NCBI GenBank assembly: GCA_016780775.1
Contig: JADHLI010000014.1
Coordinates: 1-51,993 of the forward strand
DNA length: 51,993 bases
Source of the DNA: Alphaproteobacteria bacterium
GTDB taxonomy: Bacteria; Pseudomonadota; Alphaproteobacteria; Puniceispirillales; Puniceispirillaceae
Direction: 5' to 3'
In this document: one piece after another, positions 12,670 through 37,616 of the stretch
Position numbering within the stretch: the stretch's first letter is position 1
Layout of the letters: the number at the start of each line of letters is the position of its first letter
The notes under the pieces: generated by a model
What the model saw: only the letters and a program-made list of their open reading frames with translations
Told to the model about the DNA's origin: nothing
The model's database searches: none
Program-made: the position numbers and the translations under genes

Positions 12670-13548
12670 TCAGTCATAAAGGGTGCTGGATTTACTTGCC
12701 CCTGCCATCATAGCTTGCCTCTGTGCTTCCCGCATTTCTTCATAGAGTGCAAGATGGGACGGCGCAAAAAGAGATGGCGGCGGCGTGTAATGCACGAAAT
12801 GACGCGCCCTATCCGCCCCCCTGACCAGCATCGCATAGTCCTTTTGAGCAACTTCTTGCATGACCTCTGGACTGACATAGCGAATCACAAAGCCGATACG
12901 CCTATCCTCTGAGCTATTTGGGCCGGAGCCATGGATCATCCGGCCATGATGCAACGATAGCTGACCCGGGCGAAGCACAATATCGGTCTTATCCTCTTCT
13001 GCGACCTGAACCTGAATTTCCTGTCCTCTGGAGAGCAAATTATTATCTGCAAATGTATCTTCATGCGGCAAAATCTGATTGGCATGCGATCCGGCTACAA
13101 ATTGCATACAGCCGCTTTCAACATTAACCTCTGATAAGGCGATCCATGCAGTGACCAGATGATCGGTCGCGCCCAGACCCCAATAAGTTAAATCCTGATG
13201 CATACTCACAATTTGCTCAGACTGCGCCTCTTTAATAAAAAACTCTGCCCCATAAATCAGAATGTCTGGCCCCAAAATCGCTTCTATCATATCCAGTAAG
13301 CGTGGCTGGGTTGCTAGCTCATAAGCAAAGGGCATCACACATTGCGCATTTATCCGCTTATAGGTGCCAAGGGTGCGCTGCATTTTAGCCTCCCCATAAT
13401 TTTGTTCCATGTCTTCTAGGGTGTGCCGCCATCGAGCCGCCTCTTTGATAGACATCAGATTTAGGGGAAACAAATACCCATCACGCCAATATTGCGCGGC
13501 TTGTGCTGGGGTTAGCGCGTTTGCATTATGCATCTGGCCTTCAGGCAT
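12670..13548 (-). CDS. Phytanoyl-CoA dioxygenase (PhyH) family Fe(II)/2-oxoglutarate oxygenase, copy 1
   Basis: A 292-residue PhyH-family oxygenase. The iron facial triad is visible as His117-x-Asp119 (SMHQDLT) and His206 (GRMIHGSGPN), followed by Arg216/Arg217, which would bind 2-oxoglutarate. The family hydroxylates diverse small molecules with O2 and 2-oxoglutarate and is not limited to phytanoyl-CoA. The ATG is supported by AAGGAGG six bases upstream. It is a single gene, convergent with the alpha/beta hydrolase and divergent from malonyl-CoA decarboxylase. It is one of four PhyH genes in the window and differs clearly in sequence from the other three. The substrate is unknown. Confidence 0.9.
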   Translation of the reverse strand: MPEGQMHNANALTPAQAAQYWRDGYLFPLNLMSIKEAARWRHTLEDMEQNYGEAKMQRTLGTYKRINAQCVMPFAYELATQPRLLDMIEAILGPDILIYGAEFFIKEAQSEQIVSMHQDLTYWGLGATDHLVTAWIALSEVNVESGCMQFVAGSHANQILPHEDTFADNNLLSRGQEIQVQVAEEDKTDIVLRPGQLSLHHGRMIHGSGPNSSEDRRIGFVIRYVSPEVMQEVAQKDYAMLVRGADRARHFVHYTPPPSLFAPSHLALYEEMREAQRQAMMAGASKSSTLYD

Positions 13549-13784: not shown

Positions 13785-15071
13785 ATGAATTTCTTCTCAG
13801 GTCTTTTAAATAGCCTATTTGAGCGCACCTCAAACCTGCTGGAGGGGTATCAGGCAAGCGATGATAAACTAACCAGTTTGTGTGAAGCGCTGCTATCCAC
13901 CAAAGGAGAGGTATCAGGCATTGCCATTTCCGAGCAAATCCTGAATCACTATCGCCGGCTGGACAGAGAAGATAAACGCGCATTTTTCATTTACCTGCTA
14001 ACGGAAATGGATATCGATGTTACCGCCATAAGCAGCAGTATTGAGCGCTATCAGCGGAGCAAAGAAACAACAAATTACCGTGCTTTTATTGATGCCGCAC
14101 AGCCGCGACGGCGCGATTTTTTCCGCCGCCTAAATGAAGTGCCTGGCGCCACCTTTGAGCTGGTATCCATGCGCCGGGATTTACTATCGCTATTAGCAGA
14201 AAACCCAGAATTAGGTGTTCTGGATATTGATTTAAGAGAGCTATTTATCAGCTGGTTTAATCGTGGCTTTTTGGTTTTGCGCCCTATTGACTGGACCAGC
14301 CCTGCCCATATTTTGGAAAAGATTATCTCCTATGAAGCGGTGCATGAAATCAGCAGTTGGGATGATTTGCGCCGCCGCCTCGCCCCACCAGACAGGCGCT
14401 GCTTTGCTTTCTTCCATCCCTCCATGCCAGAAGAGCCGCTGATTTTTGTTGAGGTTGCTTTATGTGCAGAATTGCCCTCTTCGGTGCAGGATATTTTGTC
14501 AGACGGGCGCGAGCCTACACCAGAAAAAGAGATAGAATATGCTGTTTTTTATTCTATCTCAAACTGCCAGCAGGGGTTAGCGGGCATCTCTTTCGGCCAT
14601 TCTTTAATCAAAACAGTTGTTGCAGAATTAAGCCAAGAACGTCCGAAATTGAAACATTTCATCACCCTGTCACCCGTGCCTAATTTTGCCCGTTGGCTGG
14701 CGCGCCAAAATATACAAGACGGGCCAGATATGCAACCAGCAGAAGCTTTCTTAACCGCCCATCCAGAAGAGGTGCGTGCCCTAGGAGCCTATTATCTGCT
14801 GCAGGCAAAGCGCGAAAATGATATGCCCGTTGATCCCGTGGCTCGGTTTCATCTTGGCAATGGTGCCAGCCTATATCAAATTCATGAAGGAGCAGATCTC
14901 TCGCCGCGTGGACAAAAGCAGTCCTATGGCCTGATGGTGAATTACTTATATGAGCGCGAAAAGCTTATCGAATATCATGAGAAATTTGTGAAAGATGGGG
15001 ATATCAAAGCCCAGCCAAAATTACATGAGATTGCTAGAAAATATAAAGATAAGCTCAGTGAAAAATCATGA
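13785..15071 (+). CDS. Malonyl-CoA decarboxylase
   Basis: A 428-residue malonyl-CoA decarboxylase of the single-subunit (MLYCD/MatA) type. The N-terminal half is the helical domain; the C-terminal half has the GNAT-like catalytic domain with ISFGHSLIKTVV, HFITLSPVPNFARWL and ARFHLGNGASLYQIH. Ser296 and His356 in those motifs match the conserved catalytic Ser/His pair. It converts malonyl-CoA to acetyl-CoA and CO2 in the cytoplasm. The stop overlaps the start of the MttB-like gene by four bases (ATGA), so the two are translationally coupled. In rhizobia the enzyme is paired with malonyl-CoA synthetase and a malonate carrier; neither is here. Confidence 0.95.
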   Translation: MNFFSGLLNSLFERTSNLLEGYQASDDKLTSLCEALLSTKGEVSGIAISEQILNHYRRLDREDKRAFFIYLLTEMDIDVTAISSSIERYQRSKETTNYRAFIDAAQPRRRDFFRRLNEVPGATFELVSMRRDLLSLLAENPELGVLDIDLRELFISWFNRGFLVLRPIDWTSPAHILEKIISYEAVHEISSWDDLRRRLAPPDRRCFAFFHPSMPEEPLIFVEVALCAELPSSVQDILSDGREPTPEKEIEYAVFYSISNCQQGLAGISFGHSLIKTVVAELSQERPKLKHFITLSPVPNFARWLARQNIQDGPDMQPAEAFLTAHPEEVRALGAYYLLQAKRENDMPVDPVARFHLGNGASLYQIHEGADLSPRGQKQSYGLMVNYLYEREKLIEYHEKFVKDGDIKAQPKLHEIARKYKDKLSEKS

Positions 15072-16588
15072 CAGATAAAAATCTAAACAGGTCACGTCGA
15101 CGAAAAAACAAAGCGGCACCCGCCCCTATCAAGCCAAAAACAAGAGGACTGGCAGGCGGGTATTTAACTATCCTTTCTGATGCCGATATGGCGGCGATAG
15201 ATGCCGCCGCAAAGGCTATTTTATGGCAGACAGGTGTGGTTGGTGCACCGCATAGACTAGCGGAAAAGGCCTGTGACGAGGGCGCTGTTCTTACCCAAGA
15301 TGGGCGCTTGCAAATACCGCCAACCCTTACAAGTAAGGCGCTTTCTGCCTTTGCAAAGCCGCTTACGCTTTATGGACGCAAGGCTGGGCAGGAACTGCAT
15401 TTAGGTAGTGGACAAGTTTATACCGGCACAGGCGGGGCTGCCCCTTTGGTTCTAGATGAAGATGGTTCTACCTTCCGTGAGGCAGGCATATCAGACCTGT
15501 TTAAAGCAGCGCGTCTGGCAGATGCGCTAGAGCATATTCATTTCTTTAGCCGACCTGTGGTTGCACGCGATATTGAGACGCCGCGCGATATGGATATTGC
15601 AACGGCCTTTACCAGCCTGAAAGGCACATCAAAACACATCATGACTTCGGTAAGCGCCGCAGAGGATGTTGCGGCTATCGCAGATATTTGTTTCACCCTT
15701 GCGGGCAGTGAAGAAGCGTTTCGCGAAAAGCCCTTTTTATCGCTAAACATAAATCATATAACCCCGCCGCTACGGCTAGCAGAAGAAGCTGTTGAGGTGA
15801 TGGCAGAAGCAATAAAATTCGGCCTGCCTGTGCAGTGTAATACCTTTGGCCAGCTTGGCGCATCTAGCCCTGTACCCCTTGCGGGGTCACTGGCGCAAAC
15901 CTGTGCTGAAACGCTGGCCGGTCTGGTAATGGCATGGCTTATAGATGAGAACGCAAAGGCCATTTTTGGCCCTCGCCCAATGGTTACAGACCTGCGAACT
16001 GGCGCAATGTCTGGCGGGTCTGGAGAGCAAGCGCTTATCATGGCTGCAACCGCGCAAATGGCAAATTATTATCAGCTACCTAACTCGGTTATTGCTGGCG
16101 CAACAGACGCAAAAACAGCAGATGCGCAATCAGGGTTTGAAAAAAGCCTGAACATTACATTGGCCGCACAGGCTGGCGCTAATCTTATCACTCAGGCTTG
16201 CGGGATGCATGCGGGGCTTATGGCAGCGGCACTGGAAAGCTATGTTATTGATAGTGATATGGCCGGAGCGATATTGCGCAGCCTTGCCCCGATAGAGGTT
16301 AGCACGGATACCTTGATGATCGCGGCAATAGATGAAACCGCTAAAGGCGCAGGGCATTTTCTAGGCCATGCGGATACATATGCGCGTATGCATAGCGATT
16401 TTTTATATCCTGAATTGGCGTGCCGCCTGCCAGTTGAAACATGGACGCAGGCAGGGGCAGAAGATATCCATAGCCGCGCCCGCAAAAAAGTTACAGCGAT
16501 TTTATCCAACCCGCCAGAAACACATATTCCAAAGGCGATAGAAACTGCCCTTCGCCAAAAATATGCTTTGCCTGACTTAGATGGCTGA
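15068..16588 (+). CDS. MttB-superfamily (trimethylamine methyltransferase-like, non-pyrrolysine) methyltransferase
   Basis: A 506-residue protein of the trimethylamine-methyltransferase superfamily. It has the basic N-terminal tail (RSRRRKNK) common to alphaproteobacterial members, then a TIM-barrel domain with YTGTGGAAPLVLD, GTSKHIMTSV and FGPRPMVTDLRTGAMSGGSGE. There is no in-frame amber codon, so it is not a pyrrolysine enzyme. Characterised non-pyrrolysine members (MtgB, MtpB, MtcB) demethylate glycine betaine, proline betaine or carnitine and methylate a corrinoid protein. No corrinoid protein or corrinoid methyltransferase is nearby, so the acceptor is unknown. It overlaps malonyl-CoA decarboxylase by four bases. 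The specific substrate is not inferable. Confidence 0.85.
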   Translation: MTDKNLNRSRRRKNKAAPAPIKPKTRGLAGGYLTILSDADMAAIDAAAKAILWQTGVVGAPHRLAEKACDEGAVLTQDGRLQIPPTLTSKALSAFAKPLTLYGRKAGQELHLGSGQVYTGTGGAAPLVLDEDGSTFREAGISDLFKAARLADALEHIHFFSRPVVARDIETPRDMDIATAFTSLKGTSKHIMTSVSAAEDVAAIADICFTLAGSEEAFREKPFLSLNINHITPPLRLAEEAVEVMAEAIKFGLPVQCNTFGQLGASSPVPLAGSLAQTCAETLAGLVMAWLIDENAKAIFGPRPMVTDLRTGAMSGGSGEQALIMAATAQMANYYQLPNSVIAGATDAKTADAQSGFEKSLNITLAAQAGANLITQACGMHAGLMAAALESYVIDSDMAGAILRSLAPIEVSTDTLMIAAIDETAKGAGHFLGHADTYARMHSDFLYPELACRLPVETWTQAGAEDIHSRARKKVTAILSNPPETHIPKAIETALRQKYALPDLDG

Positions 16589-17917: not shown

Positions 17918-18718
17918 CTATTCTGCTGCGGCCAGTTGGGCTTTTACCAGCTCATCCAGACAATCATCTGGCATTGCTTCGATAGGCGTGAAATCACGGT
18001 GCGCAATCCATTCTGCACGATTAAAGGCACGGATATGGTTATCTACATGACAAAGAGATAGATAAACAATCGTTCTATCAAATGGCGATATATTGGCCGG
18101 GCTAGCATGCACAAGAAGGGAGGAGAACATTAACATGCTTCCCGCAGGGCCCGTTGGCGCCACACAGCCGCCCCTATCTGCCAGCTTTTTAACCAGATCA
18201 TTATCAAGCGTCCACAAAGGATAGCTGGTCGTGCTAAGGTCGTGACCTGCTTCGACAACGCCTTGCTTATGACTGCCCGGAATAAAAAGCAGGGGGCCAT
18301 TTGCCGCTGTCACATCATCCAGAAATACCGCAATATTCATGGCGCGCGGTTCGGGCATTTCATCATCCCGCTTCCACGTGCCATAATCTTGATGCCATTG
18401 CCATACATCGCCGTCAAAGGCCGCTTTGGCGTTCACCTTAAACTGATGCATATATAAATCGCCCTCCAACACTTGCGAGACAGGATCAATAAGGCGCGGA
18501 TGGGCGCCGAGACGGCGAAAACCTTCATTATAGGTATGGGCAGCAAAGGCGGTACGCGCAACACCGCTTGTCTCGCGCCAGACTTCTTCGCGCTCCATCG
18601 CATAAACATTATCTGCCTCGCTCTTTAGAAGCTGGGCTTCTTCAGGTGAAAACATGCTAGGGAAAAACAAATAGCCTTCCTCGTCAAACTGCTTTAGCTG
18701 CGCTTGTGATAATTTCAT
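17918..18718 (-). CDS. PhyH-family Fe(II)/2-oxoglutarate oxygenase, ectoine-hydroxylase-like, copy 2
   Basis: A 266-residue PhyH-family oxygenase. His109-x-Asp111 in WQWHQDYGTW and the downstream LLVHASPAN histidine form the iron triad. The segment MPEPRAMNIAVFLDDV and the IPGSH motif recall ectoine hydroxylase, but the EctD signature (WHSDFETWH) is not present, and no ectoine genes are nearby. The ATG at 18718 follows GGAGG; an in-frame TTG at 18730 is less likely. It lies between a GntR regulator and the COG4091 oxidoreductase on the same strand with short gaps. It probably hydroxylates the compound that the oxidoreductase then oxidises. Confidence 0.9.
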   Translation of the reverse strand: MKLSQAQLKQFDEEGYLFFPSMFSPEEAQLLKSEADNVYAMEREEVWRETSGVARTAFAAHTYNEGFRRLGAHPRLIDPVSQVLEGDLYMHQFKVNAKAAFDGDVWQWHQDYGTWKRDDEMPEPRAMNIAVFLDDVTAANGPLLFIPGSHKQGVVEAGHDLSTTSYPLWTLDNDLVKKLADRGGCVAPTGPAGSMLMFSSLLVHASPANISPFDRTIVYLSLCHVDNHIRAFNRAEWIAHRDFTPIEAMPDDCLDELVKAQLAAAE

Positions 18719-18742
18719 TTCTTCCTCCAATAATGTGTTTTA

Positions 18743-22718: not shown

Positions 22719-22859
22719 TCAGCTTTTGCGTTTTTCATGAAGATAGTCAAGCAGATAATACCCCGCCATAACAATAACAAACCAAGCCACAAACTGATCT
22801 TTTAGATGATCTGAAGCCATCTCGTCAGTCTCCTGCTTTTCTGTTTGCGGCGCGCGCAT
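22719..22859 (-). CDS. 46-residue single-span membrane protein, coupled to msrC
   Basis: A short frame starting MRAPQTEKQETDEM and ending DYLHEKRKS. It has an acidic N-terminal third, one hydrophobic span (FVAWFVIVMAGYYLL) and a positively charged tail, so an N-out or bitopic inner-membrane protein is likely. Its ATG shares a base with the TAA stop of the sulfoxide reductase gene (TAATG), which strongly suggests translational coupling. An internal ATG at 22820, with GGAG nearby, would give a 33-residue version. I do not recognise a family. The evidence is position, coupling and a clean hydrophobic span; conservation in relatives would be needed to prove it is a gene. Confidence 0.55.
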   Translation of the reverse strand: MRAPQTEKQETDEMASDHLKDQFVAWFVIVMAGYYLLDYLHEKRKS

Positions 22860-23344
22860 TATACCCCCTCCCCTTGATAGGCTTCTGCGTTATAAATAGG
22901 CGTAAGGATATCAGCCATCATTGCTGTTAGCGGTTCTATATCTGCGGGCGTGAAAAAGTCCGGCTGATCAGAATCAATATCCAACACCGCACGCACACCC
23001 CCAGCATTATCCATCAACGGTATCACCAATTCCGAGCGCGTGCTGGAGGCGCAGGCAATATGCCCATCAAACTGTTCTACATCTGCAACCAGCTGCGGTG
23101 TAGCGGTGCGTGCTGCTGCCCCGCACACCCCTTTATCAAAGGGGATGGTAAGGCAACCATGCCCGCCTTGATAGGGGCCAATTTTCAATATATTTGGGGA
23201 AACAACCCGGTAAAAACCCACCCAGTCAAAACCGTCAAAGCTTGCGAATAACTCTTGAGAAAAGGTTGCCATCAAAGCAATTTCATCGCGCTCACCCTGA
23301 CAAATTGCCCGCAGACGCGTCGCTACTTCCCGGTAATCGCGCAT
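22859..23344 (-). CDS. msrC: Free methionine-R-sulfoxide reductase (GAF-domain fRMsr)
   Basis: A 161-residue single GAF-domain protein. It has all three cysteines of the fRMsr/YebR family: Cys64 (HGCLTIPF), Cys74 (KGVCGAAA) and Cys98 (GHIACAS), with spacings of 10 and 24 residues identical to Cys84/94/118 of E. coli. The SELVIPL and VLDIDSD segments complete the substrate pocket. It reduces free L-methionine-(R)-sulfoxide using thioredoxin-type reductant. Its start overlaps the stop of the DUF6285 gene by one base, so it is the fourth gene in a coupled chain whose first three genes concern CoA-ester metabolism. Confidence 0.92.
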   Translation of the reverse strand: MRDYREVATRLRAICQGERDEIALMATFSQELFASFDGFDWVGFYRVVSPNILKIGPYQGGHGCLTIPFDKGVCGAAARTATPQLVADVEQFDGHIACASSTRSELVIPLMDNAGGVRAVLDIDSDQPDFFTPADIEPLTAMMADILTPIYNAEAYQGEGV

Positions 23345-23718
23345 TATTTCTGCCTTGCTTCTTGCTGTGCTAAAAATTTTGGATTGGTGATGGATAGCTT
23401 TGCTTTAACATACGCTAATAAATGGCTCTGTAACATTGTGCTGTCTGGAAAAATTTGCTGACCAGTGCGCAAGTTTGCCGCAAGTTCAGCACAGCTTTGC
23501 CCCATTGCTACGGCTAGCTTATCTTCTGGGCTATCTGCATTCTCTAGATTTTGCCGTAAAATATTCAATGCACGGCGCATCATGGATTTACGGAAATTTT
23601 GCTCTGGCGGCAAATTATCAGCTAGGTGGGTGTTAAATTCGGCTTCTATCGCCGCCGCTAGCCCAGCCAGTGTTGCCATCTCATCTGCGTTCTTATTATT
23701 ATTTTTCACACCTGTCAT
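23344..23718 (-). CDS. DUF6285/LvaB-like small protein
   Basis: A 124-residue, mostly helical soluble protein. A central arginine-rich helix (FRKSMMRRALNILRQNLEN) is its most striking segment. By size, composition and position directly after an APH-type phosphotransferase and an acyl-CoA dehydrogenase it matches the DUF6285 family, to which the small partner LvaB of the levulinate pathway appears to belong. LvaB is needed with the kinase LvaA to phosphorylate 4-hydroxyacyl-CoA in Pseudomonas putida. Its ATG overlaps the kinase stop (ATGA) and its stop overlaps the msrC start (TAATG). The family assignment is from recall, not a search. Confidence 0.65.
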   Translation of the reverse strand: MTGVKNNNKNADEMATLAGLAAAIEAEFNTHLADNLPPEQNFRKSMMRRALNILRQNLENADSPEDKLAVAMGQSCAELAANLRTGQQIFPDSTMLQSHLLAYVKAKLSITNPKFLAQQEARQK

Positions 23719-24818
23719 GCTCTAAAATCCTGCCATCTATCTTCGTCTATTTCGTTTATCAGGCTAAGCATATGATATTCCATTTCTGCAACCATCTGAC
23801 CAGATAGCGCCAATTGCAAGGCAGGTTCTTGCCCACTATCATTGCGGCGGGCCTGTTGCAGGGCAATGACCGCCCATCTTATCTCTGCCATCACTTGCCA
23901 GCATCCCAAAGCAGATAGATTAATTGTCTGCCCTGATGCCGTTTCATAAGCTTCACGAAACGGGGCAAAAGGCGCTAAGCCGCCAACGCTTAAATGGTCA
24001 TTGCCAAAACGCCAGCATCTAGCGCAAAGCCAGCCAATATCTTCATGGCTATCACTAAATCCAGCAAACTCCCAATCTAGAAGCGCTGTCATTTTTTCTG
24101 CTTCAATTAAAAAATTTCCGGCCCTGAAATCACGGTGACACAAAACAGGTTCTGTCCCTGTTTGCCAGATATCCATCCTGTCTTCCAACCAGTTTAGCGC
24201 AAATTCTAGAACTGGCTGAGAGGCGCCGAGCAGGTCTAAATAGCCACGCATTTGCGATAATATATGCGCTTGTGGATTGGGTTTTGGCTGGCCGAGGCGC
24301 TGGGTTAATTCTGCTGTGGGCAGACTTTTATGCAGACGCGCCATTTCTGTGCCAAGCTGACGTGCAAGTGCAGGAGAGCCATGTGCAAAGGCTGGCAAGC
24401 GAGCGAGCTTATGCGCTTGTGCTTGGCCTGCCATTGCCTCCATTATAAAAAAGGCGCTGCCAATTACCTGTTCATCCTCACATAAACAGATAGGCGTTGG
24501 CGTACTCACCCCATGAGCAAAAGCATGCGAGAGTATGGCAAATTCCATCACCCTGCTATTGGAAACACTCACACAAGAAGGGGCATCTTTACGTAATACC
24601 CATTTTTGTACCCCGTCATATTTTCCGCCATCAATCTGTAGGTTTAGAGACCAGTTTTCCTGAATAGCGCCTCCAGAAAGCGCATAGATATCTGTTATTG
24701 AAACCTGCTTTGCCTCAACCTTATCTGCCAGATATCGGCTGAGTTTTTCAGGACTGAACGGCACGTCTAGCAACACATCAGGCACCCCAATGCCAATAAT
24801 CGCTGCCTTGTGTGTCAT
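23715..24818 (-). CDS. APH-fold acyl-CoA kinase (LvaA/ACAD10-11 N-domain-like)
   Basis: A 367-residue aminoglycoside-phosphotransferase-fold kinase. The catalytic loop HRDFRAGN and the metal-binding aspartate in ALLDWEFAGFSD are intact. In mammals this domain is fused to an acyl-CoA dehydrogenase (ACAD10, ACAD11), and in P. putida it is LvaA, which phosphorylates the 4-hydroxyl of 4-hydroxyacyl-CoA. Here the separate acyl-CoA dehydrogenase lies immediately upstream with about 41 nt of overlap, and the small LvaB-like gene overlaps downstream by four bases. I start at 24818 (MTHKAAIIG); an ATG at 24860 would add 14 unusual residues. A resistance function is unlikely in this context. Confidence 0.8.
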   Translation of the reverse strand: MTHKAAIIGIGVPDVLLDVPFSPEKLSRYLADKVEAKQVSITDIYALSGGAIQENWSLNLQIDGGKYDGVQKWVLRKDAPSCVSVSNSRVMEFAILSHAFAHGVSTPTPICLCEDEQVIGSAFFIMEAMAGQAQAHKLARLPAFAHGSPALARQLGTEMARLHKSLPTAELTQRLGQPKPNPQAHILSQMRGYLDLLGASQPVLEFALNWLEDRMDIWQTGTEPVLCHRDFRAGNFLIEAEKMTALLDWEFAGFSDSHEDIGWLCARCWRFGNDHLSVGGLAPFAPFREAYETASGQTINLSALGCWQVMAEIRWAVIALQQARRNDSGQEPALQLALSGQMVAEMEYHMLSLINEIDEDRWQDFRA

Positions 24819-25977
24819 AATGCCGTGCCAGCACCATCTTATGTACCTCATCTGCACCATCTACCAGACGTGCCTGACGGGCATAGCGATAAATCCATTC
24901 TAGCGGCGTATCTTTGGAATAGCCGCGCGCACCATTTAACTGGATGGCGGTATCCACAACCTTATGCAAGGTATTAGCGACATGAATTTTTGCTGAGGAA
25001 ATTTCTTTGCGCGCAAAACTGCCTTGATCAAGGCACCATGCCGCATGCATCACCAGTAATCGGCCGATTTGTATGTCATGGGCTAGCTCGCCCATCATAA
25101 TTTGCACAGATTCCCTATCTGCTAGCCGCACACCAAATCCGTGCCGGTGGGCGGTATATTCTGCGGCTATTTCCATACACCGCTTGGCCAGCCCCAGCCA
25201 GCGCATACAATGTGTTAGACGGGCTGGCCCTAGACGAATTTGTGTTACCTTCAGCCCATCACCAATTTCCAACAATCTGTTTTCATCTGAAATTTCCAGC
25301 CCATCAAAAACCAGTTCACAATGCCCGCCATGCTCTTCGGGGCCCATAATCGGAATGCGTCGTTCTATGTGCCAGCCGGGCTGGTCTTTATGAAATAGAA
25401 AGGCCGTCAGGCCCTTTCGTGTATCATCGGACGTGCGCGCAACCAGAATAAAATGCGCAGCTTCTTCGGCGCCGGTAATATACCATTTACGCCCATTGAT
25501 AACCCATTTATCCCCCTTAAGTGTAGCCGTAGTAAGCATCATAGAGGGGTCAGAGCCGCTACCAGGTGCCGGTTCTGTCATAGCAAAGCTAGAGCGCACC
25601 TCCCCATCAATAAGCGGCTGTAGGAACCAATCCTGTTGCGCCTTCGTCCCAATTTTAGATAGCAGATTGATATTGCCATCATCAGGGGCGGCACAATTCA
25701 ACACCGCCGGCCCAAATATAGACCGGTTAGCTTCTTCATATAAAGCTGCCCAGCCGCGCACAGGCAAACCCATACCGCCGCGCATGATAGGGGCTTGCGG
25801 CGCCCACAAACCTGCCTCTTTTGCCTTAAGCCTTACTTTTTCTAGGACAGGAAGAGCGATATTTTCATGTGCATCATAATTCGCCGCATCTGCTTCAAGC
25901 GGTAGCACATTTTCAGCAATGAACGCTTTTGTCTTTATCCGCAGAGCTTCAAATTCTGCTTCAAGGGTAAAATCCAT
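24778..25977 (-). CDS. Acyl-CoA dehydrogenase, ACAD10/11-LvaC type
   Basis: A 399-residue acyl-CoA dehydrogenase. The middle domain has FAMTEPAPGSGSDP and WYITGAEEAAHFI, typical of the ACAD10/11 group rather than of classic beta-oxidation enzymes. The C-terminal segment RYARQARLVDGADEVHKMVLA also matches that group. In the Lva and ACAD10/11 routes this enzyme removes phosphate from 4-phosphoacyl-CoA and rearranges it toward 3-hydroxyacyl-CoA. The start at 25977 (MDFTLEAEFEAL) fits the family; an ATG at 26046 would add 23 residues. It overlaps the kinase gene, so it is the first gene of the coupled chain. Confidence 0.85.
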   Translation of the reverse strand: MDFTLEAEFEALRIKTKAFIAENVLPLEADAANYDAHENIALPVLEKVRLKAKEAGLWAPQAPIMRGGMGLPVRGWAALYEEANRSIFGPAVLNCAAPDDGNINLLSKIGTKAQQDWFLQPLIDGEVRSSFAMTEPAPGSGSDPSMMLTTATLKGDKWVINGRKWYITGAEEAAHFILVARTSDDTRKGLTAFLFHKDQPGWHIERRIPIMGPEEHGGHCELVFDGLEISDENRLLEIGDGLKVTQIRLGPARLTHCMRWLGLAKRCMEIAAEYTAHRHGFGVRLADRESVQIMMGELAHDIQIGRLLVMHAAWCLDQGSFARKEISSAKIHVANTLHKVVDTAIQLNGARGYSKDTPLEWIYRYARQARLVDGADEVHKMVLARHYDTQGSDYWHWGA

Positions 25978-26178
25978 TTCTTTCACACCTATCTTGGCCA
26001 AACTCTTATTTCTGAAACGCCAGCCTTGAGTCTGGCTAAATGCCACTTTAGATCCTCATGCTAAGACAGGGGGCGCAAAAAATAAAGGCAAGCAGCCGGG
26101 ATAATTTCATCAGCACGGCTCGTTTAATTTAAAAGCTAGCTATTGAAACAAGCCTAGTGCCTAGCTAAGATTATCCCT

Positions 26179-26691
26179 ATGGAAAAAGATAATGAAAAAC
26201 ACATGCCAGTTGACCAGCTAAACAAGACTATTGGTGTGCTGGCACGCAGAGAAACCGAAGCGCGGCTTATGGCGCCCCTGATAGACGCGCTATCGAAAGC
26301 TTTTGGGCGTGAGGAAGTACTGGCGGTTATCCGCGATACAGTTATTAAAATCGCGCATGATCAAGGGGCGGCTTTAGCAAAAGAATACGGTACCAGCTCA
26401 GACGCTTTCCTTGAAACCTTATCTTTCTGGCGTCAGGATGGCGCATTGGAAATAGATATTCTGAGCCATACTGAGGAACAGCTGGATTTTAATGTCACGC
26501 GGTGCCGCTATGCAGAGATGTACAAAGCGCTAGGGATGGAAGAATACGGGGCGGTTTTATCATGTAACCGCGATTTGGCGTTAATAGAAGGGTTTGATGA
26601 AGGGGTTAAACTTGACCGTGAGCAAACCATTATGGGCGGTGCCAGCTGTTGTACGTTCCGCTATGATTTCAACAATGCTGACAAAAGCTAA
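26179..26691 (+). CDS. L-2-amino-thiazoline-4-carboxylic acid hydrolase-like protein
   Basis: A 170-residue protein with a helical N-terminal half and a C-terminal half containing [32 protein letters not shown] and [16 protein letters not shown]. These motifs are characteristic of the ATC-hydrolase-like family (PF14196), named after Pseudomonas AtcB in the conversion of a thiazoline to L-cysteine. Conserved Cys residues (CRY, SCNRD, SCC) are all present. Many members have no tested activity. It stands alone on the plus strand and its stop directly abuts the convergent BKACE gene. The real substrate may be unrelated to thiazolines. Confidence 0.8.
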
Positions 26692-27618
26692 CTAGAAGCC
26701 GACCCTGTCCGCACCTTTTAGCTGCAACATCTCACGCGCCTCATCTGGGCTGGCAATTTCCAGCCCCATTCCTTCGATAAGACCGCGAACACGCGTCACC
26801 TGCTCAGCATTTGATTTTGCCAGCTGTTTTGGCCCGCCCCAAAGGCTGTCTTCTAGACCAACACGCACATTGCCGCCCATGCCTGCTGCCATAGCGGCGA
26901 TACGCATCTGATGCCGGCCAGCCCCCAACACAGACCAGCGATAGTCAGAACCAAACAGCCTATCTGCGGTGCGCTTCATATGGATAACATCTTCTTCATG
27001 GGTGCCGATGCCGCCTAGAATTCCAAAAACAGATTGCACAAAAAAGGGCGGTTTTACGATGCCTCTATCCGCAAAATGGGCAAGCGTGTAGAGATGTCCA
27101 ATATCATAACATTCGATCTCAAATCGCGTTTGATTTTCCGCACATGTGGTCAAGATATATTCAATATCTTCAAAGGTATTTTTGAAAATTAGGCTAGTAG
27201 AGTTGGCCAGATAGGGCTCTTCCCAATCATGGTTAAATTCCTTGAAGCGCTCTAGCATTGGATATAAGCCGAAATTCATCGACCCCATATTTAGAGAGGC
27301 CACTTCTGGGCGAAAGGTTTCTGCTGGACGCACTCTTTCTTGCACGCTCATGGTTGGCGCCCCACCTGTCGTGATATTAACCACAGCATTACTAGCCTGT
27401 TTCACGCGTTGCAAAATCGGTGCGAACGCTTCAGGTGACTGGTCAGGACGGCCAGTTTCCGGGTCTCTTGCGTGCACATGTACACACGCCGCCCCTGCCT
27501 CAGCCGCGCCAATAGCGGCATCTGCAATTTCTTGCGGCGTAACGGGCAAATAGGGAGACATGGAAGGGGTGTGAATAGCCCCGGTTACCGCACAAGTAAT
27601 AATAACTTTGTTTGCCAT
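26692..27618 (-). CDS. Beta-keto acid cleavage enzyme (BKACE, Kce family)
   Basis: A 308-residue (beta/alpha)8 enzyme of the BKACE family (formerly DUF849). Zinc ligands are His47 and His49 in VHVHARDP, with a third in VGLEDSLWGG. The family cleaves a beta-keto acid with acetyl-CoA, giving acetoacetate plus a new CoA thioester; members include 3-keto-5-aminohexanoate and dehydrocarnitine cleavage enzymes. The ribosome-binding site GAGGAA is well placed. It follows a hydroxyacid dehydrogenase gene on the same strand by 25 nt, which would supply the beta-keto acid. The substrate is not determined; carnitine is possible, but no cdhB thioesterase is seen. Confidence 0.9.
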   Translation of the reverse strand: MANKVIITCAVTGAIHTPSMSPYLPVTPQEIADAAIGAAEAGAACVHVHARDPETGRPDQSPEAFAPILQRVKQASNAVVNITTGGAPTMSVQERVRPAETFRPEVASLNMGSMNFGLYPMLERFKEFNHDWEEPYLANSTSLIFKNTFEDIEYILTTCAENQTRFEIECYDIGHLYTLAHFADRGIVKPPFFVQSVFGILGGIGTHEEDVIHMKRTADRLFGSDYRWSVLGAGRHQMRIAAMAAGMGGNVRVGLEDSLWGGPKQLAKSNAEQVTRVRGLIEGMGLEIASPDEAREMLQLKGADRVGF

Positions 27619-27643
27619 TTTCTTCGTTCCTCACCCAGAAATT

Positions 27644-28576
27644 TTAATTCTTATCTTGTTCATTCTTATGATAAGTCAAGGCAGCTAGTCGCTCATTACG
27701 CCAGTTTGATCGGCCAACAATATCTGATGCTGGCAAGCGCCCTTCCCAGTTTTCTGTTATTTTTTGTGTCCAGCCCTTATCAAACACATCTGCGCCAGCG
27801 GGGGTTTTTGCCATCTTGGCAAATACCGGGCCATAGCGGGAAAAATAGTCTTCGGCCCCTTCAGGCGCATTGAGCTCAATTGTCTCAAATGGGCCCATAA
27901 ATGCCCAACGCAAACCAAGCCCGTCTTTAACTGTTTTGTCTAAATCTTCTACCGAAATAATACCCTCACCTACCAGCTTTAGCGCTTCGGCCAATAATGC
28001 GCCCTGCAAACGGTTCAGCACAAACCCATCTATTTCTTTATGCACACGCACCGGCACCTGACCAATAGATGCATATATATCATAGGCCTTTATTAAAACC
28101 GCTTCCTTTGTCCAAGACGCGCCACATACCTCTACCAGCGGCACCAAATGCGGCGGATTCACTGGATGGCCAATCAGAACGCGTTCCCGCCCAGCAAGCT
28201 GTTCAGAAAAGAGCGAGGCGACAATCGAAGAGGTCGAAGAGGCTATCGGCACATCTAGCGGTACAAGCCTGTCAAGTTCAGCAAAAATATCTATTTTGGC
28301 ATCCAGCCTTTCTGGGCCATTTTCCTGCACAAAGTCAGCCCCGCTTAAGGCTTCCTGTAAATCATTACTATAGGCGATAGCGTTTACCAGTGTATCTGCA
28401 TTCTCTGCCAGCTTATGGCGCACCAAAATTTGGCTTTCTTCCTGCAGTTTTTCCGGTAATCCTGCCAGCAATTCTGCACTAATATCATACATCTTTACCT
28501 GCCAACCTGCTCTGGCAAATACAAGCGCCCATGCCCTGCCGATTAGCCCAGAGCCGATTATTGCAACAACAGACAT
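27644..28576 (-). CDS. 3-hydroxyacyl-CoA/3-hydroxyacid dehydrogenase family, lambda-crystallin/L-gulonate 3-dehydrogenase-like
   Basis: A 310-residue NAD-dependent dehydrogenase. The Rossmann motif is GSGLIGRAW (8-16), the catalytic-type histidine is in IGHPVNPPHLVPLVEV, and the C-terminal helical domain begins DGFVLNRLQGALLAEA. This pattern fits lambda-crystallin (L-gulonate 3-dehydrogenase) and L-carnitine dehydrogenase-like enzymes, which oxidise free 3-hydroxy acids rather than CoA esters. I start at MSVVAIIG (28576); an ATG at 28606 adds ten residues. It precedes the BKACE gene by 25 nt, so the two probably oxidise and cleave one 3-hydroxy acid. Confidence 0.85.
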   Translation of the reverse strand: MSVVAIIGSGLIGRAWALVFARAGWQVKMYDISAELLAGLPEKLQEESQILVRHKLAENADTLVNAIAYSNDLQEALSGADFVQENGPERLDAKIDIFAELDRLVPLDVPIASSTSSIVASLFSEQLAGRERVLIGHPVNPPHLVPLVEVCGASWTKEAVLIKAYDIYASIGQVPVRVHKEIDGFVLNRLQGALLAEALKLVGEGIISVEDLDKTVKDGLGLRWAFMGPFETIELNAPEGAEDYFSRYGPVFAKMAKTPAGADVFDKGWTQKITENWEGRLPASDIVGRSNWRNERLAALTYHKNEQDKN

Positions 28577-28717
28577 CTTTTTAAAAAACCCTATCTTGAT
28601 AACCACTTGTTACAGTGGAAGATGCGCCAAGAGAACTGTCAAGGGTTTGACTTTACAAAATTATCAGAACAGACTTTAGCGATAGTTTAACAGACCAGCT
28701 ACTAGAAGAGAGATGAG

Positions 28718-29494
28718 ATGGATTTAGCGCTTCAGGGCTTACGCGTTTTTGTCAGTGCGGGGGCTAGTGGCATTGGCCTTGCTATTGTGGAAAGTTTCCT
28801 GACGGAGGGCGCAGAAATTGCCACCTGTGATGTGGATGAGGCCAGTCTGAATGCGCTGGCGCAAAAATATCCCAACATCCATACCTATCTTTGTGATGTG
28901 TCTGACAGTGGCGCTATTCAGGGCGTTATCCATAGTGCGGCGGCACAAATGGGTGGACTTGACTGCCTTGTAAATAATGCTGGCATTGCTGGGCCTACGG
29001 CGAAGATCGAAGATATTGATGATGCGGCATGGCAAAGCTGCCTTGATATTTGTCTTAATGGGCAATTTTATTGTGTCAAAGCTGCGCTTAGCTATCTACG
29101 GGAAAGTAGTAATCCATCCATTGTCAATTTATCGTCTGCCGCAGGCAAATATGGCTTTGCCTTGCGCACCCCTTACGCCGCCGCGAAATGGGGCGTTATC
29201 GGCTTGACCAAATCCCTGTCGATAGAATTAGGAGAGGATAATATCAGGGTCAATGCGATACTACCCGGGCTAGTTGCAGGTGAGAGGCAGCGCCGCGTGA
29301 TGGAAGCCAAATCCCAGCAGCTCGGCGTACCGTTTGCTGAAATAGAAGCCGCAGCGTTTTCTTTTTCCTCGATGAAGGATTATGTAACAGCCCAACATCT
29401 AGCAGACCAGATCCTGTTTCTGGCGAGCCCGCGCGGCAAAATGATAAGCGGCCAAGCCTTATCGATTGACGGCGATACCAAAATGTTGCTTTAG
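28718..29494 (+). CDS. Short-chain dehydrogenase/reductase
   Basis: A 258-residue SDR. The cofactor motif is AGASGIG (14-20), the NNAG element is at 86-89, and the catalytic set is Ser140 (LSSAAGK), Tyr153 and Lys157 (YAAAK). It oxidises or reduces a hydroxy/keto pair with NAD(P). Divergent from the hydroxyacid dehydrogenase-BKACE operon and convergent with the HupE gene. A 16-bp inverted repeat (CCACT/AGTGG, 28603-28618) lies in the divergent spacer. The substrate is unknown. Confidence 0.85.
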   Translation: MDLALQGLRVFVSAGASGIGLAIVESFLTEGAEIATCDVDEASLNALAQKYPNIHTYLCDVSDSGAIQGVIHSAAAQMGGLDCLVNNAGIAGPTAKIEDIDDAAWQSCLDICLNGQFYCVKAALSYLRESSNPSIVNLSSAAGKYGFALRTPYAAAKWGVIGLTKSLSIELGEDNIRVNAILPGLVAGERQRRVMEAKSQQLGVPFAEIEAAAFSFSSMKDYVTAQHLADQILFLASPRGKMISGQALSIDGDTKMLL

Positions 29495-29500
29495 GACAGA

Positions 29501-30709
29501 TCAGAAATCCACCCATCCCAAACGCTCTGCTGTCCAGTAAAACCCTGTGGCCGCAATGGCAATAGAAGCTGGAATTTGAATTACACGCCGGTAAAAACGC
29601 GCTGAGGGGCGCTGCCATAAAAACACCAGATATAGCGGGGCAACAATGGCAAGCTGACCTATTTCAACCCCAATATTAAAGCTGATAAGGGCCGGCAAAA
29701 ACTGTGCGGTAGGCAAGCCAAAATCAGCTAAGACAGAGGCAAATCCAAGCCCATGTAATAGGCCAAAACCTGTAATTAATAAGCCCCGTTGCCAGCTGAA
29801 ACGGCCCTTTGCCCAAATCGTTTCCACCGCAACATAGGCGATAGAAAGCGCGATAAGCGGTTCCACAATTTGACCAGAAATGCGCACAATCCCCAAACTA
29901 GACAACGCAAGAGTAATCGTATGCGCAAGGGTAAATAAACTAATCTGATAAAGGAGAACACGGCCAGATAGGCTAAACAAAAACAGCCCTAAGACGAACA
30001 AAATATGATCAAGACCACGCGGAATTATATGCACAAAGCCCGAATGCACATAGCGGCGCACCACATCCAGCATGGAGACCTGTACAGGGCTGCTTAGGCT
30101 TATCACATCGCTCTTCTTACCAGGGGCGAGATAGGCAGCATATAAAGGCTCCGAGGATGTGTCGCTTGACGCTTGGCGCACAATCAACGGGCCGAGCGCA
30201 GATGCCCAATACAGAATAACGTCTTTATCCCCCTTAAGAGGGGCGGCGGTAAATCGTATCGTTGTTTGCCTTGCCTGACTTTCTTCAAGACCTGTTTCAA
30301 CGGTGACATCGCGCAAGCTAAGCGGCACTCTAGCCCCGCCATTTTCAACAAAGATTTGCGCGGCTAGCCGTGGCCAATTCGCGCGTACCTGCTGTGCTAG
30401 ATCAACTGCGCTCATAGCCCGGATTTGGTCATATTCATCAGACTTATCGCTGTCATCTGTATCGGTAAGGGCACCAACATCCATGCCAGACAAAAATATT
30501 TCCGCTGTCATATCCAGCGTTACATCCAATGAGGCGGGCGGTGTTTGTAAAACCTCAAATTCCATCAAAGAGGGTCTAATTTCATGGGCGTGTGACAGGC
30601 TTGAGCCGCCAGCGATTAGCGCCAGACAGCATAACGCAAGACAGCATAGCGCAAAAGAGGTATAAATTTTAACAAAGCTAAGGGTGTGCGCGAGCATATA
30701 AAGAACCAT
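29501..30709 (-). CDS. HupE/UreJ-family membrane protein
   Basis: About 402 residues. A signal peptide ends near SLSHAHEIRP, a periplasmic domain follows, and the C-terminal half has about six membrane spans with histidines (FVHIIPRGLDHILFVLG, TLAHTITLAL, GFGLLHGLGFA), the hallmarks of the HupE/UreJ_2 family. Members of the wider family move or bind nickel or cobalt. The start is uncertain; 30709 or 30697 give a proper signal peptide, while an ATG at 30826 would add 39 odd residues and overlap the divergent gene. Convergent with an SDR. The signal peptide contains an in-frame five-residue duplication (CCLAL twice). Metal specificity is not shown. Confidence 0.8.
   Translation of the reverse strand: MVLYMLAHTLSFVKIYTSFALCCLALCCLALIAGGSSLSHAHEIRPSLMEFEVLQTPPASLDVTLDMTAEIFLSGMDVGALTDTDDSDKSDEYDQIRAMSAVDLAQQVRANWPRLAAQIFVENGGARVPLSLRDVTVETGLEESQARQTTIRFTAAPLKGDKDVILYWASALGPLIVRQASSDTSSEPLYAAYLAPGKKSDVISLSSPVQVSMLDVVRRYVHSGFVHIIPRGLDHILFVLGLFLFSLSGRVLLYQISLFTLAHTITLALSSLGIVRISGQIVEPLIALSIAYVAVETIWAKGRFSWQRGLLITGFGLLHGLGFASVLADFGLPTAQFLPALISFNIGVEIGQLAIVAPLYLVFLWQRPSARFYRRVIQIPASIAIAATGFYWTAERLGWVDF
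30624..30653. repeat. 15-bp tandem duplication inside the HupE signal peptide
   Basis: agacagcataacgca (30624-30638) is followed by agacagcatagcgca (30639-30653). The duplication keeps frame and yields CCLAL twice in the hydrophobic core of the signal peptide. Confidence 0.9.
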
Positions 30710-30796
30710 TATTTTATAACAGGCGAAGAGATTTTGACAGAAACTTATCTTTGTGAACCCTATCCTCAGAACGGTATATTTTAAAGGTCTAATTTT

Positions 30797-31639
30797 GTGA
30801 AAATAGCTAGAGACAAGCCCCGCCAACTTATCCGCAAAACTCTCGTCTATAGCCTTATGTCTAGCGCTTTACTCTTCACCTATGCTGCGCTGGCACATGA
30901 AGTATGGCTAGCCCCGAAAACCTATCATGGGGAGCGGCAAAAACCCGTGCAAATTGACATTCGCCTTGGCCAGAATTTCATTGGGGATGCGCTGCGTTAT
31001 CGCCCCCGCACTATCGCGAAGCTTGCCTTTTTAACCCGCACTGCAACGGCGCCTGTCACTGGCCGCCTTGGCGACTTGCCTGCTATCCAGACCGCTGCGC
31101 CGGAAGATGGCCAGAATATTCTGATCTATCAGAGCCTGCCCGAAAAAATGCTCTATAAAAACTTTGATAAATTTGCTGAATTTGTGCAGGAGAAGGGGCA
31201 TGAAAAATTGCTGGATCAGCATGGTCAGCGCGGGCTGCCAGACAAGTACTTCACCGAGATCTATAGCCGCTTTGCAAAAACTATCCTGCTTCGCGGCGGC
31301 GGCGGAAAAGGCGTTCAAGATCGGCTGGCCGGATTAGAGGTTGAGTTTGTCTTGGAGAGCGGTTTGATGACAACAGATAGCCCCCTTCCTATCCGCCTAT
31401 ATTATCAGTCTGCGCCGCTAGCCAATGCAAAGATTACTATCTTTGATAAGGGCAGAGATGGGAAAATCTCCCAGCAAAAAACCTTTTCTGATGGGCAGGG
31501 GTATATCTATCTAACCCCTGTTAAGGGGCATGAATATCTCATCGACCATGTAACTATTCGTGCTATCCAACCAGAAGAAAATCCACATCAGGCGGTATGG
31601 GAATCACTTTGGGCGTCGCTGACCTTCAAAGCACCATAA
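30797..31639 (+). CDS. DUF4198 periplasmic protein
   Basis: A 280-residue secreted protein. The N-terminus is a signal peptide (basic MKIARDKPRQLIRK, hydrophobic core to about residue 31) cleaved before LAHEVWLAPKTY. The AHEVW start of the mature chain and the later RLYYQSAPLANAKITIFDK domain fit DUF4198, a family linked with nickel/cobalt uptake and TonB systems. The start is GTG at 30797, with TTGTGA-18-TATATT promoter-like boxes at 30751-30780. Divergent from the HupE gene across a short spacer, the pair probably serves one metal-handling task. No receptor or metalloenzyme gene is next to them. Confidence 0.75.
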   Translation: MKIARDKPRQLIRKTLVYSLMSSALLFTYAALAHEVWLAPKTYHGERQKPVQIDIRLGQNFIGDALRYRPRTIAKLAFLTRTATAPVTGRLGDLPAIQTAAPEDGQNILIYQSLPEKMLYKNFDKFAEFVQEKGHEKLLDQHGQRGLPDKYFTEIYSRFAKTILLRGGGGKGVQDRLAGLEVEFVLESGLMTTDSPLPIRLYYQSAPLANAKITIFDKGRDGKISQQKTFSDGQGYIYLTPVKGHEYLIDHVTIRAIQPEENPHQAVWESLWASLTFKAP

Positions 31640-32648: not shown

Positions 32649-33545
32649 TTAAATACCAGCCTGCTTTAGCTGCTTTTGAATTTCATAGATGGAGCCCTGC
32701 TGCGCTGGTTGTGGTTGCGGAATACGAACAGGGGTTGCAGATACGCGCGGGGCAATAGTCGGTTCACCGCACAACATCCGCTGATTATATTCTTCGATAT
32801 CGTTAAATTTGGTCATGCCGCCCATAATAGGAAAGGCGTCTGCTGCCATCATTTCAATAAATAACAAGCGGCGCGGGCGGTCTGAAATATTCTCAGCAGA
32901 CCCATGCACAATCCGGCCATGATGAATTGAAACTGAACCGGCAGGCCCATTTAATTCAACTGCCTTATCTGGGTCTAAACCATTATCTTCAAGAGACAGG
33001 CCACCTGCAAAAACACCCTCTACATGATGGTCATAAATGGGACCTTTATGAGAGCCAGCGAACACCTTTAAGGGGCCATTTTCAGTGCGCATATCATCGA
33101 TAATCACTGCTAATGCCAGCACATCATCATTAGTATGCGGGTAGAATGCAAAATCTTGATGCCAGTCTATTGGGGCGCCATAGCCCGCAGATTTCATATT
33201 CAATTTTGTTGTATGCAGGCGAATATGCGCGCCGATTAAATCGCGTATTGGGGCTAAGATCGCATCTGAATACATCAGATCGCGCACAATATCAGATTGC
33301 GTATGCGGCAATTTAATACGCCGAATACGCGGCTCGTCTGGTCTGTGGCTATCTTCCATATCAAGCTTTTCATCTGATTCGGTCATGCCATAGGCAGTGT
33401 GCTCAATACGCGCTATCTCACCACGCAACGCTTCAATAACAGACATATCCAGATGGTTTTCCAGCAACAGATACCCTTGCTCGTTATAAAAATTAGCCTG
33501 CGTGGTTGTCAGACATTCAAACTCTGGCTTTTTATCTATGTCCAT
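32649..33545 (-). CDS. PhyH-family Fe(II)/2-oxoglutarate oxygenase, copy 3
   Basis: A 298-residue PhyH-family oxygenase. Iron ligands are His129-x-Asp131 (DWHQDFAF) and His214 (GRIVHGSAEN), with Arg225/226 placed to bind 2-oxoglutarate. Its ATG follows GGGGGAG eight bases upstream. It is the last gene of the PhyH - COG4091 - UxaA - PhyH run on the minus strand, 57 nt after UxaA. A small GGGTTT/AAACCC hairpin sits in that gap. It presumably acts on a sugar acid or a derivative, unlike true phytanoyl-CoA hydroxylase; this is inferred from neighbours only. Confidence 0.9.
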   Translation of the reverse strand: MDIDKKPEFECLTTTQANFYNEQGYLLLENHLDMSVIEALRGEIARIEHTAYGMTESDEKLDMEDSHRPDEPRIRRIKLPHTQSDIVRDLMYSDAILAPIRDLIGAHIRLHTTKLNMKSAGYGAPIDWHQDFAFYPHTNDDVLALAVIIDDMRTENGPLKVFAGSHKGPIYDHHVEGVFAGGLSLEDNGLDPDKAVELNGPAGSVSIHHGRIVHGSAENISDRPRRLLFIEMMAADAFPIMGGMTKFNDIEEYNQRMLCGEPTIAPRVSATPVRIPQPQPAQQGSIYEIQKQLKQAGI

Positions 33546-36644: not shown

Positions 36645-37616
36645 TTAGGCGCAGAAAGGGGCATCTGATTGCCAGCGATGGATGGGAATATGCGGCGCTG
36701 TGGATAGCCTGCTGCGTGCCTGCTCCCAGCTATGCCGCCATGCCTGCCAGTCGGTTAACACACCCTCAGGGTCAGCTTTGCTACGTGCAACAAATTCGGG
36801 GAAATGCCCACGCCCCGTTGGCTGACCAGTTCGATTAAAACGAATATCAAAAGACCATCTAAATGAATCTGTATGGTTTTCCAGCGATGCATGGGCTGTT
36901 AGCGGGTCTAGAATCACAATGCCCCCAGATTTGACCGGCAAGGGCACAACCCTATCCATATCAATAAAGCCTTCTGCTATAGCGGTCTGGCTTTTAGGGC
37001 AATGCGGCAACAGCCCTTGATCTGCTTTTTTAGGCAGGACTTGCAGGCAGCCATTTTCCAATGTTGCATCTGTTATCGCACACCAAATAGTGACCATATC
37101 TGTGTGATCTGCCTCATCATGGGCAACCCCCCTATCCTGATGCCAGTCTGTATGGGCGATATGGGCGCGTACCTCATCATCATACAGCTTGCGGGCAGGG
37201 GGTTTCAGGCGCACATGCTGAATAGGGTTGGACGTAATTTCCGGTCCTATCAGAGTTTCAACAATATCTAGGAGTTTTGGTGCGGTCAGAAGGGCAAAAA
37301 CAGCTGGACCAAAATGCATCGGCGTATCGGCACAGATACGCTCACCGGGAAGCGAAATATCCATCGGCTGAAACCAGTCACAACCCGCATCATAACAAGC
37401 CTCTAGCTGGGCAAAGAAATCAGCATCTTTCAGCTTTTTATCAATACGGCCTTGCGCTATCCAGTCATCCACCAAGCTTGCCAGCAATACCTGATATTCT
37501 GCCCGCACAGGGTCAAGGATGGTTTCTTGATCAAAGACATTCTCTACCACCAGATAGCCTTGCTTTTCAAAGAGCTCTTTTTGCGTATCAGATAGCAATT
37601 TCACTACCCCTCCCAT
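36645..37616 (-). CDS. PhyH-family Fe(II)/2-oxoglutarate oxygenase, copy 4
   Basis: A 323-residue PhyH-family oxygenase, the largest of the four here. Iron ligands are His159-x-Asp161 (TDWHQDRG) and His242 (LTAHASLENH), with an arginine in SFDIRFN for 2-oxoglutarate. The ATG at 37616 has AGGA seven bases upstream; a GTG four codons later is an alternative. It heads the PhyH - COG4091 - UxaA - PhyH run and lies downstream of the TRAP operon's terminator, so it may have its own promoter. The gene pair it forms with COG4091 is repeated at 16.6-18.7 kb. Confidence 0.9.
   Translation of the reverse strand: MGGVVKLLSDTQKELFEKQGYLVVENVFDQETILDPVRAEYQVLLASLVDDWIAQGRIDKKLKDADFFAQLEACYDAGCDWFQPMDISLPGERICADTPMHFGPAVFALLTAPKLLDIVETLIGPEITSNPIQHVRLKPPARKLYDDEVRAHIAHTDWHQDRGVAHDEADHTDMVTIWCAITDATLENGCLQVLPKKADQGLLPHCPKSQTAIAEGFIDMDRVVPLPVKSGGIVILDPLTAHASLENHTDSFRWSFDIRFNRTGQPTGRGHFPEFVARSKADPEGVLTDWQAWRHSWEQARSRLSTAPHIPIHRWQSDAPFCA

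Follow-up and report, generated by a model that had tools for sequence, protein, structure and literature searches.

We analyzed a 51,993-nucleotide stretch of DNA (hereafter the window) from an alphaproteobacterium of the family Puniceispirillaceae, where it forms contig C38 of a draft genome of 2.21 Mb (44 contigs, 99.56% complete). We found that three neighboring genes in it, coding for an acyl-CoA dehydrogenase (ACAD, or "C"), a kinase of the APH fold ("A") and a 124-residue DUF6285 protein ("B"), most likely specify a two-step converter of 4-hydroxyacyl-CoA, in which a kinase with a DUF6285 subunit would be followed by a phosphate-eliminating ACAD. This reading follows from the signature residues of the ACAD, the catalytic Asp and Asn of the kinase, the family of the small protein, its linkage with the kinase and the order of the genes; the reactions and the subunit role are carried over from LvaA, LvaB and LvaC and from ACAD10/11, as described in the available parts of PMC12440821, PMC11342911 and PMC6692424. 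The module looks like an LvaCAB-type converter whose dehydrogenase, judged by sequence, branches separately from the lva-type ACADs. By this analogy, the kinase and its putative DUF6285 subunit would transfer the gamma-phosphate of ATP to the 4-hydroxyl of the acyl-CoA, giving a 4-phosphoacyl-CoA. The ACAD10/11-type flavoenzyme would eliminate the phosphate, held by an Arg upstream of the HCMR motif, by means of the Asp and this motif and with no net oxidation; the product would be a 2-enoyl-CoA, partly hydrated to 3-hydroxyacyl-CoA, that could enter beta-oxidation.

The available part of PMC12440821 states that the predicted catalytic Asp and other active-site residues of LvaC are common to ACAD10/11 only, and that an HCMR motif is specific to ACAD10/11 and lies downstream of a conserved Arg with an analogue in glutaryl-CoA dehydrogenase. 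When the window ACAD was aligned to ACAD11, these features were located in RLGPARLTHCMR and LVDGADEVH as R248, HCMR (256-259) and D373, with R248 of RLGPARLTHCMR at the position of R626 of mouse ACAD11; R248, H256-C-M-R259 and D373 were also placed in an alignment of the window ACAD with 15 relatives. The protein had been described as an ACAD10/11-type dehydrogenase in a sequence-only reading of the window, and the presence of all these residues bears this out. The Arg and the HCMR motif were absent from all six other ACAD loci found in the same genome (two of which look like near-copies of one another), and the Asp position, alignable in four of the six, was occupied by A, E, G and E. Related loci were sampled with the ACAD as query, and the best 80 of at least 559 confirmed stretches (at least 589 pattern matches) were used. 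An HCMR-bearing open reading frame (ORF) was present in all 80, and 72 matched a stricter pattern of Arg-HCMR plus Asp. Among the remaining eight loci, the Arg was visible in every one and the Asp in five, the Asp region of L072, L113 and L125 not being picked up by the stricter pattern.

The kinase matched PF01636 (APH) with 111.5 bits against a cut-off of 23.2, and the catalytic D and N of its HRDFRxGN motif were invariant in alignments of 16 and 36 sequences. Plasmid p12939-PER carries an lva-type operon in which the gene after the kinase is annotated as LvaB, and the window kinase shared 40% identity with the kinase of that operon; these two results agree with the earlier description of an APH-fold kinase of the LvaA kind. 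An AlphaFold2 model (pLDDT 90, pTM 0.88) had 3dxp, 25-hydroxysteroid kinase and Rv3168 as its first fold matches, with spectinomycin APH(9) sixth, and a phmmer search ranked 3dxp first and ACAD11 third (38 bits for the ACAD11 kinase). That the kinase is an antibiotic phosphotransferase, which the sequence-only reading had named as a finding that would speak against it, and the ACAD an ordinary fatty-acid dehydrogenase, as the APH Pfam family could suggest, is highly improbable: the best score among the NCBIfam antibiotic-phosphotransferase models listed, that of APH(3'), was 27.2 bits against an equivalog cut-off of 205, the fold ranks favor non-antibiotic APH-type proteins, and the ACAD signature residues and the linkage of the kinase with DUF6285 also speak against this reading.

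The small protein scored 33.8 bits with PF19802 (DUF6285), above the gathering cut-off of 28.1. This hidden Markov model check placed it in the family of the annotated LvaB (85.3 bits), as the sequence-only reading had expected of an LvaB/DUF6285-like protein; since the annotated LvaB belongs to the same Pfam family, LvaB is therefore a DUF6285 protein. NCBIfam contained no LvaB model matching the small protein. Its structural model was all-helical (pLDDT 83, pTM 0.61) and gave no PDB fold match at E≤0.001, with 54 at E≤10. A tblastn search of the plasmids with the window DUF6285 protein gave no match even at E 10, a null result that reflects low sensitivity, because DUF6285 genes are annotated in plasmid records that the kinase query retrieved.

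The occurrence of DUF6285 closely followed that of the kinase. A kinase match was found in 46 of the 80 loci, 38 of them LvaA-type by score (37 above 300 bits, plus the L113 kinase, a fragment of 110 residues at the end of its contig) and eight divergent (109-140 bits). Of the 38 LvaA-type loci, 36 contained DUF6285, against none of the eight with a divergent kinase and none of the 34 without a kinase; the two LvaA-type loci in which it was missed, L107 and L113, both stop at a contig end. Besides, a profile built for DUF6285 found kinase and DUF6285 within one open frame in four loci, namely L052 (on the contig of L040), L075, L101 and L117, and Pfam detected APH in all four. These apparent fusions are good and not firm evidence, because their Pfam support for DUF6285 is weak, the L040 copy is a member of the building set of the profile, and draft contigs can hold frame errors. 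Among 136 genomes of the order, ten carried an LvaA-type kinase. The small protein followed it or was fused to it in nine. In the remaining genome (L208), the end of the kinase gene is overlapped by a 129-residue frame that, judged by eye, has the same pattern. From this pairing, DUF6285 is proposed to be a partner, and perhaps a subunit, of the kinase. The loci in which a divergent APH kinase follows a signature ACAD and no DUF6285 was found are L070, L073, L074, L095, L108, L112, L120 and L123; their kinase is perhaps of a type that needs no LvaB.

The sequence-only reading had placed the module at 23344-25977 in the order C-A-B, and both the order and the positions were confirmed on the minus strand, where the ACAD, kinase, DUF6285 and GAF genes are consecutive (Table 1). 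Its report of overlapping frames held for the kinase and DUF6285 genes, which share four bases, and probably needs correction for the ACAD and the kinase. The longest frames of these two overlap by 83 bases, a value that hinges on the most upstream ATG of the kinase. Because GTG codons at 24785 and 24776 in the kinase frame flank the ACAD stop (TGA, 24780-24778), and because the kinase frame of congener L034 opens only past the ACAD stop, the 83 bases are probably over-called and the true overlap is probably 0-8 bases. The longest ACAD frame likewise begins further out, with a GTG at 26046. DUF6285 and GAF genes overlap by one base, and the GAF gene adjoins DUF6285 in all six genus genomes with the module as well as in a second own copy on contig C31. 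Purifying selection was evident on the ACAD, kinase, DUF6285, BKACE, 3-hydroxyacid dehydrogenase (HCDH) and GAF genes in comparisons with congeners in which dS was unsaturated; dN/dS values were 0.30 for DUF6285, 0.12-0.14 for the kinase, 0.04 for the ACAD and 0.01-0.04 for BKACE.

Table 1. Genes of the C-A-B module and its surroundings in the window.
Feature	Position	Strand	Remarks
GAF-domain protein, last gene of the run	22859..23344	-	PF13185/PF01590
DUF6285/LvaB-like protein "B", proposed kinase partner	23344..23718	-	124 aa, all-helical; PF19802
APH-fold kinase "A"	23715..24776	-	PF01636; likely start GTG 24776 or 24785; longest frame from 24860
ACAD10/11-LvaC-type acyl-CoA dehydrogenase "C"	24778..25977	-	399 aa; PF00441/PF02770/PF02771; ATG at 25977
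L-2-amino-thiazoline-4-carboxylic acid (ATC) hydrolase	26179..26691	+	PF14196 129.7 bits; between BKACE and ACAD
BKACE	26692..27618	-	PF05853 367.4 bits; NF053538
HCDH, lambda-crystallin type	27644..28606	-	PF02737/PF00725; NF004783 386.7 bits, cut-off 347
SDR oxidoreductase, divergent	28718..29494	+	companion of HCDH-BKACE module rather than LvaD

The draft genome also contains a second, diverged version of the region, apparently split over two contigs (G000:C44:1-9782, locus L041, and G000:C31:1-1732, locus L002), in which the kinase is 84% and the ACAD 95% identical to those of the window. It is probably a co-binned strain.

Several observations weigh against the converter reading. The residue R86 of ACAD11, a modeled CoA contact next to the alpha-C glutamate according to the available part of the ACAD11 paper, has no obvious counterpart in either of two bacterial kinases, M91 standing in the window kinase and Q in the lva-type kinase; this feature may be limited to ACAD11. 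The DUF6285 counterparts of congeners L035 and L037 gave no Pfam match at E 0.1 and were recovered, at the same place in the run, by the purpose-built profile, in whose building set both are included. Among the fusions, the DUF6285 part remained under the Pfam cut-off of 28.1 in L075 (24.7 bits) and L101 (27.0 bits), and no Pfam DUF6285 match was found in L052 and L117. The window ACAD was just 46% identical to an lva-type ACAD, with a long branch between them. Finally, no kinase match was found in the locus for 34 of the 80 ACAD relatives (one of these loci, L077, ends 679 bases past the ACAD), and therefore a link between the signature ACAD and a kinase may not be universal. Elsewhere in the genome, a search of 20 of these 34 genomes gave only distant APH matches in 17 (≤123 bits, E≤1e-20) and none in three. 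In 27 of the 34 kinase-free loci (for example, L054, L060, L066, L097 and L129), the HCMR-bearing ACAD is preceded by a same-strand SDR gene.

With regard to substrate, the window ACAD was 45-46% identical to lva-type ACADs (L042, L048) and 80-99% identical to those of its own family. In a tree made by a quick method (94 rows, midpoint root, three lva-type rows, KT2440 LvaC left out), a long supported branch separated the lva-type ACADs and Thermus from the window ACAD, and the seven rows with BKACE formed a single clade (SH-aLRT 97). A Pfam scan of 40 window ORFs, which excluded small and end ORFs, found no relatives of LvaD, LvaE, LvaF/G or LvaR. The window SDR, 2.7 kb away, was 27-28% identical to LvaD-type SDRs versus 41% to the SDRs located after HCDH-BKACE in another family, and on these values it was rejected as LvaD; it was also 65% identical to the SDR beside the ACAD and the kinase:DUF6285 frame in L040. 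The sequence-only reading was thus right that neither LvaD nor a CoA ligase is adjacent. Elsewhere in the genome are two ligase genes whose products share about 50% identity with the lva-type LvaE. According to the available part of PMC6692424, mutation of lvaE did not abolish growth of P. putida on levulinate. A levulinate operon was ruled out for this locus by the lack of LvaD/E/F/G/R among the scanned ORFs and by the position of the ACAD apart from LvaC. These results, together with an upstream module unrelated to the lva genes, sustain the earlier suggestion that the substrate may differ from levulinate, and a 4-hydroxyacyl-CoA of short or medium length, distinct from the 4-hydroxyvaleryl-CoA that levulinate gives, appears more likely than levulinate itself.

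Comparison with known systems showed both shared and distinct features. The lva-type operon likewise combines an APH kinase, DUF6285/LvaB and an ACAD with HCMR and Asp, with overlapping kinase and small-protein genes. In contrast to the window, its order is A-B-C instead of C-A-B, and HCDH-BKACE stands beside the window module only; identities were 40% for the kinase, 46% for the ACAD and 24% for DUF6285, in a comparison that excluded the KT2440 sequences. Mammalian ACAD10 and ACAD11 also unite a kinase with a phospho-eliminating ACAD of the same signature residues, whereas the window has separate chains plus DUF6285; LvaB is not named in the available main text of the two ACAD10/11 papers (PMC12440821, PMC11342911). 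Plasmids of Azospirillum (L044), Paroceanicella (L043) and Thermus (L046) carry C-A-B with overlaps or near-overlaps, their ACADs being 66-67% (Azospirillum and Paroceanicella) and 45% (Thermus) identical to that of the window. These clusters differ from the window in that another SDR lies directly upstream in Azospirillum and Paroceanicella, a histidine phosphatase gene lies downstream in Azospirillum and Thermus, and no HCDH or BKACE match was found in the 11-17 kb seen of the three. A histidine phosphatase gene follows DUF6285 at L042:8996-10113, L044:9068-9756 and L046:5926-6932. The available part of PMC6692424 reports a phosphatase and no lvaB in P. citronellolis LA18T, where lvaB was possibly overlooked, because the Stutzerimonas plasmid operon L042 has both.

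Just upstream of the ACAD, on the same strand and 25 bases apart, are the BKACE and HCDH genes (26692-28606), which the sequence-only reading did not mention. The BKACE exceeded the NF053538 equivalog cut-off (550.7 vs 430 bits), and its nearest solved structures were 3e49 and then BKACE15 (8rio/8rip); those nearest to HCDH were lambda-crystallins. The lambda-crystallin-type dehydrogenase family acts on free 3-hydroxy acids. No description of an LvaCAB-type module with BKACE, nor any mention of DUF6285, was found in the literature searched. The acetoacetate CoA-transferase family PF01144 was found in none of five genomes searched (controls, 6 of 14), and therefore acetoacetate would need a synthetase. 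Three explanations of how this module relates to C-A-B compete with each other and not with the converter reading.

The chances are about even that the two are unrelated neighbors, C-A-B serving general 4-hydroxy-acid salvage fed by ligases in trans and HCDH-BKACE degrading another acid. The LvaE-like ligases in trans agree with this, as do the surroundings of the same core within the family: an AMP-binding ligase together with a BMP-type ABC transporter at the sister-genus locus L038 (by Pfam; L039 is alike by eye), an SDR in L040, and neither ligase nor SDR in L208. BKACE as an obligate partner of C-A-B was ruled out, as a sister genus has a 73-74% identical BKACE in a different cluster (L186-L188); its neighbors there, named by eye, are OsmC-like, molybdenum hydroxylase-like and TRAP transporter genes. 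Speaking against unrelated neighbors are the tight same-strand run in congeners and, weakly, the joint absence of both modules from two genomes that are each less than 80% complete.

Somewhat doubtful, though it accounts for the missing adjacent ligase, is a ligase-free route. In it, HCDH and BKACE would act on a free acid, either 3,6-dihydroxy or 6-hydroxy-3-oxo, to yield acetoacetate plus a 4-hydroxyacyl-CoA for C-A-B. HCDH-BKACE lies beside, or one gene from, C-A-B in all six genus genomes with the kinase, and kinase and BKACE are jointly missing from the other two of the eight. These two genomes are just 77% and 76% complete. In L035, L036 and L037, HCDH, BKACE, ACAD, kinase, DUF6285 and GAF genes form a run on one strand, with gaps of ≤61 bases in L035 and L037 and no ATC-hydrolase gene between BKACE and ACAD; against this, the run is split in the present species by the plus-strand gene at 26179-26691, and the opposite-strand ATC-hydrolase gene occupies the same place in L033, L034 and L041. 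The enzyme types are also consistent with such a route, HCDH being nearest to lambda-crystallins and BKACE exceeding its family cut-off. For the breakdown of deoxyribonate, a BKACE step with glyceryl-CoA, a hydroxyacyl-CoA, as its product has been proposed (available part of PMC6365646). In that oxidative pathway, a dehydrogenase and BKACE are likewise proposed to convert a free hydroxy acid to acetoacetate and hydroxyacyl-CoA; however, its dehydrogenase is of the SDR type and it has no kinase/ACAD converter, so it offers a parallel for the speculative ligase-free route only. In the accessible portions of this literature, no 6-hydroxy-3-oxo acid was found described as a BKACE substrate. Because the two LvaE-like ligases are encoded in trans, no ligase in cis is required, which weakens an argument from the missing ligase to BKACE. 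Within the genus, synteny extends beyond the two modules, for example to PhyH, and therefore the adjacency of HCDH-BKACE and C-A-B may reflect descent. Besides, other families of the order, in which an LvaA-type kinase was not found, also pair BKACE with an HCDH-like gene. Of 20 loci whose BKACE is 55-59% identical (L166-L185), 12 are flanked by HCDH-like genes, and no C-A-B ACAD or kinase match was seen in these short loci of 2-4 kb each. The 73-74% identical BKACE in another cluster of the sister genus also stands against this route.

The reverse order is unlikely. In it, the 3-hydroxyacyl-CoA made by C-A-B would be hydrolyzed, HCDH would oxidize the free acid and BKACE would cleave the resulting 3-keto acid; beta-ketopentanoate, for instance, would yield propionyl-CoA and acetoacetate. 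Beta-ketopentanoate and beta-ketohexanoate are confirmed substrates of BKACE15, and they are the keto acids expected from 4-hydroxyvalerate and 4-hydroxyhexanoate; but a thioesterase would be required and none was seen in the cluster, the thioester would be wasted, and thiolysis would be simpler.

Several other genes of the window were noted. A malonyl-CoA decarboxylase gene and an MTTB-family (trimethylamine methyltransferase) gene share an overlap of four bases (13785-16588). Four PhyH-family dioxygenase genes are found in the 52 kb (12670-13548, 17918-18730, 32649-33545 and 36645-37616), two of them adjoining DRL-type oxidoreductase genes. At 29501-31639, a HupE/UreJ-type membrane protein gene is divergent from a DUF4198 gene, their longest frames overlapping; the SDR and EamA genes on either side of this pair are direct neighbors in congener L037.

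The chemistry of the converter is already known from P. putida and mammals, and the HCDH-BKACE context appears to be the new part. This context suggests a natural substrate class other than levulinate. The pairing of DUF6285 with the kinase and the apparent natural fusions offer proteins for probing the role of LvaB. Across the sister genera, the converter core stands beside a ligase, an SDR or BKACE.

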